This document shows positions 16,733 to 22,218 of a stretch of DNA of 48,777 nucleotides, piece by piece; the stretch's first letter is position 1; each line of letters starts with the position of its first letter. Origin of the DNA: Dehalococcoidia bacterium (GTDB lineage Bacteria; Chloroflexota; Dehalococcoidia; UBA2979); contig JAIBBD010000011.1 of NCBI GenBank assembly GCA_019694855.1, positions 1 to 48,777 on the forward strand, in the 5' to 3' direction. The translations under genes and the position numbers were made by a program. The notes under the pieces are model-generated. The model was not told the origin of the DNA and ran no database searches. It saw nothing but the letters and a program-made list of their open reading frames with translations.

Positions 16733-17911
16733 GTGACCTCGACCGCGTGGGACGGGGATACTCGGCGGATGACGGCTGGCGTCCGCATCCGAGGCCCCTA
16801 CCTGGGACAGAGTGGCTACGACTACCACACACGCGAGCTCACGCGGGCGATGGTCGCACTCGGGATGGAGGTCGACCTGCAGCAGCTCGAGCAGTGGGGC
16901 CCCTCGGGGCTGCCTTACGAGCTGCGTGAGCCCTGGCTCGAGCGGCTGAGACGGCCCGCGGTGGTCCGAGGCGTGGTGCACTGCGCATTCCCGACCCAGG
17001 TGGTCGCGACGAGGTGGCTGCCGGACATCAACTTCACGATGTTCGAGGCAACGCGCATCCCTCGGACGTGGGTGGAGGCGCACCGGGCGGCGGACCTCGT
17101 CGTCGTGCCGACCGAGCACTCGCGGCGCGCTTGGATCGACAGCGGGGTGCCCGAGGAGAAGCTGCGGCTGTGCCCCCTCGGCGTGCGGACGGAGCTGTTT
17201 CGTCCGGGGGTACGTCCGCTCGAGTTGGAGGACGGTCGGGGCCGACCGATCGGTTCGTACAGCCGGCGATTCCTGAATGTGTCGGCGGTCGGTGGGCGCA
17301 AGAACCTCGAGGGGCTGCTGCGCGCCTGGCTGAGGGCTACCTCACCTGACGACGATGCGATCCTGCTCTTGAAGCCGGGCACCTACGAGGCGGGGACGGT
17401 GGCCGAGCTGGAGCGGATCGTGCAGGCCGCCGAGGAGGGCGCGGGGAAGAAGCGCCGCGAGGCGGCTCCCATCGAGTTCACGTGGCTCGTGTTGCCGGAC
17501 GTCGACATGCCTCGGTTGTTTGCTCTCGGGACCCATTACATCAGCCTCTCGTTCGGCGAAGGGTGGGACCTGCCGATGTCGCAGGCGGCGGCGGCCGGCC
17601 TGCGACTGATCGCCCCGCGGCACAGCGCCTACCTCGATTACCTCGGTGACGAGGTCGCCTCGATGATCCCGGCGCGCGAGTCGCCCGCCTCGAGCGCGAC
17701 CGACCCGTGGGTCAACTCCCTGTTCGAAGGTGCGAACTGGTGGGCACCGGACGAGGACGCCGCCGTGGAGCAGATCCGGCGAGCGGTCGCCGGCAAGGAC
17801 ACACCCGCAGCCTCGGCGCGGGAGCGGATGATGGAGCGGTTCACCTGGCGGCATGCCGCCGAGCGGCTGCTCGACCTCCTCGACGAGTGTTCGGTTATGT
17901 CGCCTCGATGA
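16733..17911 (+). CDS. Glycosyltransferase, GT4-like
   Basis: A 392-residue GT-B-fold glycosyltransferase. The N-terminal domain opens VRIRGPYLGQSGYDYHTRELTRAM. The C-terminal domain has FLNVSAVGGRKNLEGLLRAW and the nucleotide-sugar pocket ISLSFGEGWDLPMSQAAAAGL (E-x-x-x-D/P...A..G pattern). The start GTG at 16733 follows GAGGAG closely; an ATG at 16769 is the alternative. It converges with the next operon, sharing its last 17 bases (17895-17911) with that operon's final gene on the other strand. With the three glycosyltransferases there, it probably belongs to the same surface-glycan or protein-glycan locus. Confidence 0.82.
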   Translation: MTSTAWDGDTRRMTAGVRIRGPYLGQSGYDYHTRELTRAMVALGMEVDLQQLEQWGPSGLPYELREPWLERLRRPAVVRGVVHCAFPTQVVATRWLPDINFTMFEATRIPRTWVEAHRAADLVVVPTEHSRRAWIDSGVPEEKLRLCPLGVRTELFRPGVRPLELEDGRGRPIGSYSRRFLNVSAVGGRKNLEGLLRAWLRATSPDDDAILLLKPGTYEAGTVAELERIVQAAEEGAGKKRREAAPIEFTWLVLPDVDMPRLFALGTHYISLSFGEGWDLPMSQAAAAGLRLIAPRHSAYLDYLGDEVASMIPARESPASSATDPWVNSLFEGANWWAPDEDAAVEQIRRAVAGKDTPAASARERMMERFTWRHAAERLLDLLDECSVMSPR

Positions 17912-19139
17912 GGAGGCGGTTGACGACGTCCTGGGAGTAGCGGCTGGCGACGAGCGCCGCAGCGCGATCCACGAGGTCCGCAGCGAGCTGGGGCTCGGAG
18001 ATGAGCCGAAGACAGGCGTCAGCGAAGGCGTCCCCGTCATCGGCCACAAGGAGGTCCAGGCCCGGGACCGCCTCGATCCCCTCGACGCCGAGCGACGTGC
18101 TGACGACGGGGCGGCGATGAGCAAACGCCTCGAGGACTTTGATGCGGGTGCCACCGCCGGCGCGCAAAGGGACTGCTACGGCGTCGGCGTCCCCGTATTC
18201 AGCGGCGAGATCCGCCGCCTCGCCAACGAGGCGTACGCCGTGGCGACCGGTGAAGGGGCGAAGGTCGGCGGCCGGCAACCGTCCGACGATACGGACGAGG
18301 ACGGGACGGCCGGCGCGAGCGTGTACGCGAGGCAGGACCCGACGCGTGAACCAGGCGACTGCATCGAGGTTCGGCTCGTAGCCGAGGGTGCCCACGAAGA
18401 AGAACGTGTAGGGGTGAGTCGTGCGCGGGACGGGCGGCGACGAGGGGATGCGGACGGCGTTCGGGATGACGCGCACCTCAGGTGCGGCAGGGACGAGGCC
18501 GCGCAGGCGTTCGGCGTCAAGTTCGGAGCAGACGTAGACACGGTCGAAGCGAGGTATCCAGTCGTGCTCGGCCGCGGCAAAGCGGCGGGCGTCCTCGATG
18601 TCGGCGTCGCCAGCACCGGGCACGTCGTGCAGCGCCGCCAGGCGCGAGCGGGTCACGGACTCGATGTCGTCGAGATCGAGGTGGAGACGAGCCGCGGGAA
18701 ACTCGCGTGCGAGGGACAACGCGATCGGCGCGGTGTACAGGCGAAAACTATGGATGACCTCGATGTCGGCCGAGCCATCGAGCGAGCGGACGGCGTCGAC
18801 GCAGCGGCGTGCCTGCGCGCCAAGAACGCGGATGAGATCGGGGTCGCGTCGGCGGAAGAGGCGCGGCCAGCGGCGGTAGGACGCGGGCACGGGCGCCATG
18901 ACCGTCACTGACTCGGCATGCGCGCGCGCGAATGCCTCAAAGCGGGGGGACGCGGTGGCGAATACCGGCACGACGAGGAGCGCGACCCGGTACCGCTGAG
19001 CGAGGGCCTCGAGCCACATGCCGGCGCGCATCGCGAGGCCGTTGCCGCCGGTGTCCGGGAATGTCGGCGTGACAAACAGGAGGCGCGGCCGAGCGCCTCG
19101 ATCGTCGAGGGTTGGCGGCCGCGAGTCAGAACGGGTGAT
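17895..19139 (-). CDS. Glycosyltransferase family 4 (apparent ATC start)
   Basis: A 414-residue GT-B glycosyltransferase. Its first strand is PRLLFVTPTFPDTGGNGLAMRAG; mid-protein is VRVIPNAVRI, then YTFFFVGTLGYEPNLDAVAWF, VRIVGRLPA, and the donor site VPLRAGGGTRIKVLEAFAHRRPVVSTSLGVEG. It is the last gene of the operon and overlaps the upstream gene. No ATG, GTG or TTG lies within 45 residues before the first strand, except an ATG at 19185-19187 that would add 16 odd residues. ATC at 19137-19139, with GGAG 7 nt upstream, fits better. Which start is used is unproven. The enzyme would add a sugar to a lipid-linked or protein-linked acceptor. Confidence 0.85.
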   Translation of the reverse strand: MTRSDSRPPTLDDRGARPRLLFVTPTFPDTGGNGLAMRAGMWLEALAQRYRVALLVVPVFATASPRFEAFARAHAESVTVMAPVPASYRRWPRLFRRRDPDLIRVLGAQARRCVDAVRSLDGSADIEVIHSFRLYTAPIALSLAREFPAARLHLDLDDIESVTRSRLAALHDVPGAGDADIEDARRFAAAEHDWIPRFDRVYVCSELDAERLRGLVPAAPEVRVIPNAVRIPSSPPVPRTTHPYTFFFVGTLGYEPNLDAVAWFTRRVLPRVHARAGRPVLVRIVGRLPAADLRPFTGRHGVRLVGEAADLAAEYGDADAVAVPLRAGGGTRIKVLEAFAHRRPVVSTSLGVEGIEAVPGLDLLVADDGDAFADACLRLISEPQLAADLVDRAAALVASRYSQDVVNRLLIEAT

Positions 19140-19920
19140 GGAGGATCTCCAGGTTGGGGAGCCCCCAGCACTCGACGCCCATGTCATGCGCGAGCGCGGC
19201 CAGGCCCTCAGTCTCGATCTCGCCTCGGCCGCGGCGCACACGCGGACTTTCGAGACCGTACATGAACGGCGGGAACACGAGGCCATCGCGGTGCAGGTCG
19301 GCATTCACGAGGAGCATCGTGCCGCCGACCGCATCGAGGCGCACGAGTTCGTGGTCGCGAAGGACGTCCATGTGGTCCTGACCCTGGTCGACCCAGGCGT
19401 TCTGGTCGAAGGTGGGTCCTCCGAACTGCAGGACGCAGTGCGGGTGAACGATGTCCTTCCCGACCGCGAGCAAACGCTCGATCACGTCCGCGGGGTAGTC
19501 GAGCAAGTCGGCGTCCATCCAGAGCACCCAGTCCTCGTCGTCCAGCGCATGGAACAGGAGATGGTTGCGGCTGCGCGCGAGGATGCTGCGGCGCTCGAAC
19601 TGAATCGACTCGTCCCACCTCGGAAGGCCGTCGGGAATGCGGTACCCAAAGTCCCGTTTCCAGATCAGGGCGCGGCGGAACTCTCGGTCGAGCTGAGGCT
19701 GGACGACGCGTAGCGCCTCGAATGTGCCGTCGGCGCTGTCGCCCTCGAGGAAGCCGAGCGAGATGCGGTCGTGGGGGTAAGTGAGTCGTCGGAGGAGCCG
19801 CACGTAGTTGTCCAGTGTGGGACGTGCGTCCTTCATCGGCGTCAGGATCAAGACGCGGGGCTGTAGGCGGTTGCCCGCGGACGCCTCGGAACCTTGCCTA
19901 CGGGCGAACGGGAGCCGCAT
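19126..19920 (-). CDS. Anp1-like glycosyltransferase
   Basis: A 264-residue GT-A-fold protein. Features: RVLILTPMKDARPTLDNYVRLL at the start, LGFLEGDSADGTF, DEDWVLWMDADLLDYP with the DxD metal motif at residues 136-138, and the C-terminal ETEGLAALAHDMGVECWGLPNLEILHH. The order and motifs match the Anp1/Van1 family, best known as fungal Golgi mannosyltransferase subunits and rarer in bacteria. The ATG at 19918-19920 was preferred over an upstream GTG. It overlaps the preceding GT2 gene by 23 bases and the following GT4 gene by 14, so the three enzymes are translationally coupled. Confidence 0.8.
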   Translation of the reverse strand: MRLPFARRQGSEASAGNRLQPRVLILTPMKDARPTLDNYVRLLRRLTYPHDRISLGFLEGDSADGTFEALRVVQPQLDREFRRALIWKRDFGYRIPDGLPRWDESIQFERRSILARSRNHLLFHALDDEDWVLWMDADLLDYPADVIERLLAVGKDIVHPHCVLQFGGPTFDQNAWVDQGQDHMDVLRDHELVRLDAVGGTMLLVNADLHRDGLVFPPFMYGLESPRVRRGRGEIETEGLAALAHDMGVECWGLPNLEILHHPF

Positions 19921-20743
19921 CGGTCTCAGCACGCGATACGGCCGCTTCGGCCGCGACGAGCTCGTCGTGGATACCTCGATACACGTCCAGCGCCCAGTCG
20001 GGGAAGAGCTGTTCGGGGGAGCGGTGGTAGAGCGGACGAGAGGTCAGGTACTGCTCGAGCGTGCTGCCGTCGAGCTGGTAGGTCCAGGTGTGGCCGAACG
20101 TTCCGGAATGGCCTCGATGGCGGATGGCGACGAAGGTCTCCTTCGAGTCGATGGTGAGGAACTGGGCGCCCGCGCGGATCTGGTCACGATAGAACCAGGC
20201 GTCCTCATCCGTGGGGACGGGGCGGAAGGGCCGCCGACGCCAGTCGTTCTTCGAAAACAGCAGCGTGGCGCCCGGGGCGTTGAAGTCGGTGGATTCATGG
20301 ATGCGCCAGGACTTGAGCTCGAAGAAGAGGAAGCCCATGTGAAAGACGATGGTTGGACGACAGACCAGGCGCTCACTGTCGAGCAGGGCCTCGACGGACG
20401 TGGCGAGGTAGTCAGGTGCGTACCAGTCGTCATCGTCCATCTTCATGCAGAGACGACCCCGAGCCGCCTCGACGCCGTGGTTGAGCTTCACGCCGAGCGG
20501 TGTCCCAGGGGGGACGGTGACGACGCGGACTGATTCGGCGGGAAGCGATGAGACGTCGGCCGGGAAGTCCAGCCCGTCGTCGACGACGACGAGCTCGCGG
20601 TTGGCGTAGCTCTGGTGTTGAAAGCAGCGGAGCGCAATCGGCAGGAGGTGCGGCCGGTCGCGCGTCGTCAGGACGACAGAAACCAAGGGGCCCGAGGCCG
20701 GCGCCGTAGATGGCACCACCTCGGGCCGCCCGGGGACTGGCAC
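19898..20743 (-). CDS. Glycosyltransferase family 2
   Basis: A 281-residue GT-A enzyme. The N-terminal strand is PLVSVVLTTRDRPHLLPIALRCFQHQ, followed by NRELVVVDDGLD. The metal motif is KMDDDDWYAPDY at residues 101-112. A divergent C-terminal half has FSKNDWRRRPFRPVPTDEDAWFYRDQ. The start is GTG at 20741-20743 with no good Shine-Dalgarno site. It lies 27 bases after the small Tat protein's stop, and a hairpin fills that gap, so its expression may be lower than that of the small protein. Confidence 0.85.
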   Translation of the reverse strand: MPVPGRPEVVPSTAPASGPLVSVVLTTRDRPHLLPIALRCFQHQSYANRELVVVDDGLDFPADVSSLPAESVRVVTVPPGTPLGVKLNHGVEAARGRLCMKMDDDDWYAPDYLATSVEALLDSERLVCRPTIVFHMGFLFFELKSWRIHESTDFNAPGATLLFSKNDWRRRPFRPVPTDEDAWFYRDQIRAGAQFLTIDSKETFVAIRHRGHSGTFGHTWTYQLDGSTLEQYLTSRPLYHRSPEQLFPDWALDVYRGIHDELVAAEAAVSRAETDAAPVRP

Positions 20744-20752
20744 GGAACGGAG

Positions 20753-20770
20753 TCCGGACGGGTGTCCGGA
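20753..20770 (-). promoter_or_regulatory. Intercistronic hairpin directly after the small Tat protein gene
   Basis: TCCGGAC (20753-20759), loop GGGT, GTCCGGA (20764-20770) form a perfect 7-bp stem that begins at the first base after the small protein's stop codon. There is no T-tract. Such hairpins often stabilise the upstream message or dampen downstream genes; that role here is inferred. Confidence 0.5.
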
Positions 20771-21091
20771 CTAGTTGAAGTGCGGTGGGAAGGTACCGTT
20801 GAAGATGGGCGGATACGTCCCGTTGAAGACGGGTGGGATGTAGCCGTTCCAGACCGGCGGCTTCGGCTTCGGGTAGGTGTGATTGAACTGCGGCAGGTTG
20901 AAGTTGAAGTAGGGCAGCGTGCCGTTGAAGAAGGGCAGTGTCTCAGCCTTGGGGTCGCCGGCGTCGGCCCCACGGGCAAAGGTCCCGGCAAGGGCGGCCC
21001 CGAGGAAACCCGCGCCCAGCAGGCGGAACAGCCCTCGGCGCGAGTGCTTCCCCGCGATGTGCTTGCTCATGTCATCGAATCGCTCGGTCAC
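20771..21091 (-). CDS. Tat-exported Pro/Phe/Asn repeat protein with N-x-T sequons, unknown family
   Basis: A 106-residue protein of unrecognised family. Residues 1-45 form a twin-arginine signal: KHSRRGLFRLLG, a hydrophobic run, and cleavage near ARGADAG. From residue 50 the chain is nearly all repeats of about 7-8 residues, (L/Y/F)-P-x-F-N-G-T: LPFFNGT, LPYFNFN, LPQFNHT, PPVFNGT, YPPIFNGT, FPPHFN, with a PKPKPPVWNGYI insert. Asn-x-Thr sequons occur at N56, N70, N90 and N98. There is no Cys. The GTG start (21089-21091) overlaps the upstream stop as GTGA, and AAAGGGA lies 6 nt before it. Three glycosyltransferase genes follow. I suggest a displayed, possibly N-glycosylated structural peptide; this is inference. 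Confidence 0.8.
   Translation of the reverse strand: MTERFDDMSKHIAGKHSRRGLFRLLGAGFLGAALAGTFARGADAGDPKAETLPFFNGTLPYFNFNLPQFNHTYPKPKPPVWNGYIPPVFNGTYPPIFNGTFPPHFN
20774..20938 (-). repeat. In-gene tandem repeat coding for P-x-F-N-G-T units
   Basis: On the + strand the units show as recurring GTTGAA (reverse of TTC-AAC, Phe-Asn) followed by GGG/GGCGG-type bases, about every 21-24 bases. The units are diverged at DNA level but conserved as protein. Confidence 0.65.
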
Positions 21092-22218
21092 AGGTCATCC
21101 CTTTCGAGGTCCCTCGAGGGCTGAGCCCTCGCGATCTCCATCTGATCGGCCGCGCGTCCGGCAGACACGAGGAGCTGGTTAATGCTCGCCGCTCCCACGG
21201 CCACCTCGGCGCTCACCACGCCCCACTCGTCGAGCAGGAACGCTGCGGGCGTCGCGAAGATACCATAACGCCTTGATACTTCCCAGTGCCGCTGCAGGCC
21301 GACCGCGAAGGTGGCGTCGTGCCTTGCGATGTCGATTCGGGTGAGCTGGGGATCGCCTCGGCTGATCGCGAGGACGCCCAGTTGCGGATGTTCGCGGTGT
21401 ACCGACTCGAGGAGGGACGTGACCTGATCGCAGGCCTCGCATTCCGGATCGAGGAACGCGATGACTGTTGCGCGGCCTCGAAAGTCGAGCAATGAGAGCT
21501 CGCCTCCCGCGGCCGACGGAAGCCGAAAGAGCGGAGCCGCTTCGCCGGGAGTGAGGCCGTCGCGGCGCGTCACAGGGGCGTCGAGGAGCGCGGGGCTCGC
21601 GCCCCCGTCATCGAGGACTGCATCCTCGACGGAGCCGATCTCCCCCGCCTGCAGCATGATGGCCTGGACGCCGACGGCTACCTCCCCGACCGTCGTGCCA
21701 TCCGCATCGAGCAGGTAGCTCATGGGAGTGCCATCGACCCGGTAGGCGGCGGCCACCTCGGTGGCGCGCTGGAGGAGCACCGCTCCGCTGAAGTCCGAGG
21801 CGTCGAAGAGCCGCCGGTTTGCCTCGATCGCCCCGGTCGAGACGATCACCGGCGCGGGGCGGCCGGGGACGACATCGCGAGTCAGGCCGACGAGCAGCGG
21901 CAGCAGACGCCTCGAGAAGGCGCACTCCGGGTCAAAGAAGACGAGCAGCACCCGCTGACCACGCCACTCAGTGAGACGACGGGGAATGCCATTGAGGTCG
22001 GGCAACTCGAAGGGTGGGGCCGGTGTTCCCGGTGGCAGGTTGGGGATGTAGTCCTCGACCAGCGCCGCGGGATCGGGCGGCGCCACGAAGACCGACTCGA
22101 GCCGTTCTAGGCGCAGCAGGATGCGCCCGTTCTGCATGACGAGGTTGTAGGCGATCAGCAGCGTGAACGCCGCGAGCAGACCGACCAGCACGACGGCGAT
22201 CAGCAGGGCGAGCTGCAC
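21088..22218 (-). CDS. Membrane-anchored double thioredoxin-like (TlpA/MauD/redoxin) protein
   Basis: A 376-residue protein. One N-terminal membrane helix (LALLIAVVLVGLLAAFTLLIA) is followed by two tandem thioredoxin-fold domains on the outside. Domain 1 (about 60-200) has PAPPFELPDLNG, LLVFFDPECAFSRRLLP and cis-Pro DGTPMSYL. Domain 2 (about 222-355) has AAPLFRLPSAAGGELSLLDF, IAFLDPECEACDQV and cis-Pro IFATPAAF. Only domain 2 keeps a CxxC (C260, C263); domain 1 has CAFS with one Cys. The layout resembles TlpA or MauD. I chose the GTG at 22216-22218, with GGAG 6 nt upstream; a TTG four codons earlier is possible. It is the first gene of the glycosyltransferase operon, overlapping the next by 4 bases. 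Confidence 0.8.
   Translation of the reverse strand: MQLALLIAVVLVGLLAAFTLLIAYNLVMQNGRILLRLERLESVFVAPPDPAALVEDYIPNLPPGTPAPPFELPDLNGIPRRLTEWRGQRVLLVFFDPECAFSRRLLPLLVGLTRDVVPGRPAPVIVSTGAIEANRRLFDASDFSGAVLLQRATEVAAAYRVDGTPMSYLLDADGTTVGEVAVGVQAIMLQAGEIGSVEDAVLDDGGASPALLDAPVTRRDGLTPGEAAPLFRLPSAAGGELSLLDFRGRATVIAFLDPECEACDQVTSLLESVHREHPQLGVLAISRGDPQLTRIDIARHDATFAVGLQRHWEVSRRYGIFATPAAFLLDEWGVVSAEVAVGAASINQLLVSAGRAADQMEIARAQPSRDLERDDL

Follow-up and report, generated by a model that had tools for sequence, protein, structure and literature searches.

An enzyme module consisting of a double redoxin, a GT2 glycosyltransferase, a GT62-like glycosyltransferase and two GT4 glycosyltransferases recurs in a distant family of the phylum, and three of its genes in a third family, with varying gene order and accessory genes, whereas the small Tat-leader repeat protein found next to it lies outside this conserved unit, either as a lineage-specific passenger or as an acceptor. 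We give a rough probability of 0.4 to the reading that the glycosyltransferases (GTs) of the cluster glycosylate the repeat protein in the cytoplasm before its export by the Tat pathway. The window analysed here is the entire 48,777-base contig C12 of assembly G000 (2.46 Mb, 96% estimated completeness).

The five minus-strand genes described in the first-pass annotation were all confirmed, namely a membrane-anchored double redoxin with two AhpC-TSA stretches (21088-22218, or up to 22230 with a TTG start), a Tat repeat protein of 106 amino acids (20771-21091) belonging to no Pfam family, a GT2 glycosyltransferase (19898-20743; Pfam Glycos_transf_2, E 2e-13), an Anp1-like, GT62-type glycosyltransferase (19126-19920; Pfam Anp1, E 1.7e-47) and a GT4 glycosyltransferase (17895-19190; Pfam Glyco_trans_1_4). 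The GT2 and Anp1-like enzymes are predicted from their sequences to be soluble. This set was incomplete, however, as a second GT4-type gene on the plus strand (16769-17911) had been overlooked; it is convergent with the GT4 gene and their 3′ ends overlap by 17 bp. The GTGA overlap at 21088-21091, in which the redoxin gene ends and the small gene begins, the 27 bp gap between the small gene and the GT2 gene and the following 23 bp overlap were exactly as described. The 14 bp overlap proposed between the Anp1-like GT and GT4 genes would require a non-canonical ATC start, the nearest usual start of GT4 being ATG 19190, which results in a 65 bp overlap. Directly behind the small gene, on the minus strand, lies a hairpin with a perfect 9 bp stem and a 4 nt loop (20751-20772), and the 61 nt segment bearing it folds with −21.8 kcal/mol (z −3.6). 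There is no T run at this hairpin, which, located past the stop codon of the repeat protein, would allow a higher expression of the repeat protein than of the GTs.

The Anp1-like enzyme scored 162.6 bits against Pfam PF03452 (gathering score 28.8), carries the motif WMDAD and is, on profile evidence, a genuine relative of the GT62/Mnn9 family. A profile of five bacterial sequences aligned with the yeast Mnn9 structure 3zf8 along its length (E 8e-40), with the DxD region and the VGG and IETEG motifs lining up. Compared with the GT62 mannosyltransferases Mnn9, Van1 and Anp1 (PMC9769593), the window enzyme matches by profile along the Mnn9 structure 3zf8 but is bacterial and devoid of an N-terminal transmembrane helix. 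As a Mesorhizobium homolog of Mnn9 has already been mentioned as an outgroup (PMC9769593), the GT62 family is not new in bacteria. The GT4 enzyme is a distant relative of TIGR03087, below the cut-off of that model. According to Pfam, none of the cluster GTs contains a membrane or lipid-carrier domain or matches the NGT-type family (HMW1C, GT41), and the scan of the cluster genes revealed neither a polymerase nor a flippase nor an initiating phosphosugar transferase.

That the GTs and the redoxin constitute a genuine unit, as had been proposed, was borne out by genome G380, which belongs to another family of the phylum and whose Anp1-like relative was recovered from a 400-genome phylum sample. 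Its module occupies 672022-678405, i.e. 6.4 kb, in a gene order different from that of the window, and contains orthologs of the Anp1-like GT (about 60-61% identity), the GT2 (46-48%), the GT4 (36%), the convergent GT4 (46%) and the double redoxin (about 30-31% over 309 residues, E 8e-22), together with a cytidylyltransferase-FkbM methyltransferase fusion. In G559, from a third family, three members were present, namely the Anp1-like GT (64%), the GT4 (36%) and the convergent GT4 (47%). The convergent GT4/GT4 arrangement is therefore kept in all three genomes and, because the G380 and G559 orthologs likewise converge on the GT4 ortholog, the plus-strand gene is assigned by homology to the module. 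The gene beside the GT62-like one in the G559 module encodes a Mannosyl_trans3-GT4 fusion (L093, 1797-4385), Mannosyl_trans3 being a fungal-type mannosyltransferase family.

Close relatives of the window genome did not share the GT62-like gene. Among 149 class relatives no true relative of the Anp1-like GT was detected, only partial matches with E 1e-5 or weaker, and none was present in phages and viral contigs; the plus-strand GT4-type gene gave only weak matches in other genomes of the same family. Since the close relatives are devoid of the GT62-like gene, the set behaves as a horizontally moving cassette and was probably acquired by horizontal transfer. In a tree of eight GT62-like domains the window sequence grouped with those of G380 and G559, albeit with a support of only 80/79. 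The cluster has a GC content mostly between 0.64 and 0.70, slightly below the 0.72 of the genes to its right, so composition neither proves nor excludes a transfer.

The small protein consists solely of a leader and P-x-F-N-G-T repeats, and the sequons reported at N56, N70, N90 and N98 were all exact. Its mature part of 62 residues contains 14 Pro, 9 Phe and 8 Asn, includes the four N-x-T sequons and is free of both Cys and Ser. Shuffled sequences of the same composition would yield 0.49 sequons (P about 2e-4), a value to be read with the repeat structure in mind, which makes the four sequons non-independent. The Asn, Gly and Thr codons vary among the repeats (AACGGCACG, AATCACACC, AACGGGACG, AACGGTACC), which points to the repeats being kept by selection on the protein, rather than to a fresh DNA duplication. 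The structure prediction suggested in the first-pass annotation yielded only a coil with low confidence from a single-sequence model, and models of this type were of too low a quality to build on.

No relative of the mature part was found in the 149 class relatives, in plasmids, in the PDB or in a scan of 400 genomes for the repeat pattern, and two genome-contig scans returned no relatives of either the small protein or the redoxin. A weak match in G026 was confined to the Tat region; FNGTFNGTFNGT in G281 was rejected as it sits in an unrelated protein of 227 residues, and in the three other pattern matches from the 400 genomes no two FNGT units were encoded in one frame. Likewise, inspection of all frames between the redoxin and GT2 genes of G380, and of matches resembling a Tat leader or FNG across 32 kb, revealed no Tat repeat protein. 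The anticipated co-occurrence of the five genes was thus not observed: the repeat protein was found in this genome only, and as the modules of G380 and G559 are without it, it falls outside the conserved unit. The first-pass annotation had named conservation of the GT genes with other neighbours as an argument against its proposal, and for the GT modules of these two genomes this is in part what was found.

The leader comprises residues 1-44, with the motif SRRGLF and a likely cleavage after ADA44, and thus combines a twin-arginine motif, a hydrophobic core and an AxA-type site, as in Tat substrates, with the existence of homologous leaders. With the leader of a G067 Tat protein that is rich in Cys it shares 46% identity. 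A profile built from these two leaders gave few matches within the class, but among 200 genomes around G380 it matched in 32, and genomes of the G380 family have up to 14 copies each. These loci (L109-L138) represent a many-copy Tat-leader family (RFDxLTxxLAxxxSRR) with highly variable, mostly Cys-rich mature parts. The members examined have mostly 8-71 Cys, and the window protein shares their leader but differs in its Cys-free mature part. Homology to this family argues that the small ORF encodes a real exported protein. Taken together, the distributions of the leader family and of the GT module suggest an origin of the cassette in a lineage resembling that of G380. Alternatively, the assembly may be contaminated by a contig from such a lineage.

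The redoxin has one N-terminal transmembrane helix, a first domain with CxxS (Cys103) and a second with CxxC (Cys264, Cys267), when residues are counted from TTG 22230; a GGAG is found just 5′ of the alternative start GTG 22218. It is MauD/ResA-like but lies below the curated MauD and ResA cut-offs (65.8 bits against NCBIfam TIGR02661, cut-off 188.6, for MauD), and no other mau genes were recognised among the cluster genes. It resembles the MauD/MauE and ResA/TlpA redoxins as a membrane-anchored thioredoxin-fold protein and differs in its two redoxin domains, the first of which has CxxS only. In G067 (contig C37, L033, 6083-7930), a MauE-MauD-type fusion of DoxX-like helices and a redoxin directly precedes the Cys-rich-tailed Tat-leader protein. 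The two are likely a redoxin-substrate pair, and the G067 redoxin is 39% identical to that of the window over 158 amino acids. The thiol chemistry that had been envisaged on the repeat peptide is excluded since the peptide lacks cysteines; the membrane redoxin would rather serve other Cys-bearing exported proteins or the envelope. Because its partner is a Tat-leader protein in G067 and GTs in G380, it may serve either of the two.

The neighbourhoods of further Anp1-like relatives bear on what the GTs may modify. Gemmobacter encodes a Gly_transf_sug/Anp1-like fusion, and the Azospirillum plasmid copy whose domains were analysed unites Gly_transf_sug, GT2 and Anp1-like domains in one protein, with another GT2 next to it; both relatives lie in surroundings of generic glycan genes. 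On the Azospirillum plasmids (L064, 6414-8777; L065, 6390-8759) glycosyltransferases of 787-789 amino acids adjoin a GT2, the one from A. oryzae being the Gly_transf_sug/GT2/GT62-like fusion. In G600, a GT2-Anp1-like fusion is followed by the gene of a large secreted RTX-type repeat protein (L092, 1-3834), and in G603 a Gly_transf_sug-GT2 protein adjoins an Anp1-like frame with one internal stop (L094, 76-7520), the next gene again encoding a large secreted RTX-type repeat protein. The RTX-type proteins of these two genomes have in common an N-terminal stretch W-x-x-L-W-x-L/T-T-x-N-F-x-R-A-W. GT2 and the Anp1-like GT are thus a frequent pair for which exported repeat proteins are one kind of neighbour among several; contexts with repeat proteins number three, too few for statistics.

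The proposal that the GTs modify the repeat peptide or its carrier lipid therefore held as far as the GT-redoxin unit is real, but not in placing the repeat protein within the conserved unit. Cytoplasmic glycosylation of the repeat protein would proceed as follows. The soluble GTs would build a short glycan stepwise on a polypeptide acceptor, which in this genome would be the Tat protein encoded in translational coupling, with Asn/Thr sites displayed at regular spacing by its Pro-rich repeats; the protein would be made and modified inside the cell and then exported whole as a Tat substrate. Such modification is supported by the position of the small gene inside the operon with its GTGA coupling, and by G600 and G603, where a further type of exported repeat protein adjoins the GT2/Anp1-like pair. 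It is also supported by the orthologous genes in G380 and G559, the lack of a true Anp1-like relative in the 149 class relatives, the sequon excess and codon variation of the repeats, the GTs' lack of membrane or lipid-carrier domains in Pfam and the homology of the leader. As the GT pairs of these genomes precede secreted RTX-repeat proteins, direct cytoplasmic glycosylation of exported repeat proteins may, by analogy, take place. The narrower version, in which the soluble GTs including the Mnn9-like enzyme transfer sugar to the Asn (or Thr) of F-N-G-T without lipid carrier or oligosaccharyltransferase prior to Tat export, is in our opinion improbable. Against modification of the repeat protein in general, no GT family in the cluster is, to our knowledge, known to initiate glycan transfer onto the Asn of an N-x-T sequon.

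The occurrence of the module without the repeat protein in G380 and G559 and the generic glycan contexts in Azospirillum and Gemmobacter likewise speak against modification of the repeat protein. The former also fits a different role, namely that the GTs build an exopolysaccharide, capsule or glycolipid glycan, the Tat repeat protein being a surface protein without relation to them whose gene was inserted into the operon and is merely co-transcribed. The cytidylyltransferase-FkbM fusion of G380, which would also suit a surface polysaccharide or glycolipid, and the Mannosyl_trans3-GT4 fusion of G559 are glycan-building genes, and the Tat-leader family is found in several copies at other G380 loci. 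We regard this role as a serious possibility at somewhat less than even odds, given that the cluster genes scanned include no recognisable polymerase, flippase or initiating phosphosugar transferase, that translational coupling puts the small gene inside the operon and that GT2 and Anp1-like domains adjoin secreted repeat proteins in G600 and G603. A further and rather unlikely reading takes the repeat protein for a wall peptide of structural or adhesive function that is left unmodified, and pairs the redoxin with the Tat leader, as in G067, and not with the GTs. The aromatic, Pro- and Asn-rich (FN-rich) composition resembles a short matrix protein, the hairpin suggests differential expression and the related G067 redoxin adjoins a Tat protein with a similar leader, but the window protein offers the redoxin no Cys and the redoxin accompanies GTs in G380 as well. 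Canonical en bloc N-glycosylation, in which the product of the GTs would be a lipid-linked oligosaccharide, transferred to N-x-T by an oligosaccharyltransferase, would account for four such sequons in an exported protein but is highly improbable, as no flippase was recognised in the cluster and no STT3/PglB (PF02516) match was obtained in the 96%-complete genome while archaeal controls were positive, rendering lipid-linked glycosylation of the sequons unlikely. If the protein is modified, direct transfer becomes the main route since no STT3 was found in the genome.

Cytoplasmic glycosylation of the repeat protein would have a parallel in the serine-rich-repeat glycoproteins Fap1 and GspB, whose glycans are added intracellularly by GTs encoded in clusters (PMC5207161, PMC5578698). 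Both have GT genes beside the gene of an exported repeat protein, and the stepwise cytoplasmic transfer proposed here is alike; in contrast, the window protein has a Tat leader, is tiny and is rich in Asn, Pro and aromatic residues, not in Ser. Neither a GtfA/GtfB pair nor accessory Sec genes were recognised in the cluster, which sets it apart from serine-rich-repeat systems. Glycocin clusters (sublancin, pallidocin; PMC6405829) similarly combine a small precursor, a glycosyltransferase and a thioredoxin-like protein in one operon, whereas the window has a Cys-free peptide with a Tat leader, several GTs of other families and no ABC/SunT-type transporter-peptidase in the operon, and is hence not of the glycocin type. 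In the literature searched, no compact bacterial cassette was described that combines a GT62-like relative of mannan polymerases with a double redoxin, a GT2 and two GT4s. The module can be placed as a variant among the GT clusters that include a GT62-like enzyme. Of the repeat protein, only the leader is of a known kind; otherwise it is an orphan found in one genome. If the module does modify exported repeat proteins, it would represent a toolkit for glycosylation that is small, soluble, transferable and linked to export by the Tat pathway, and the bacterial GT62-type enzymes would gain a testable role.
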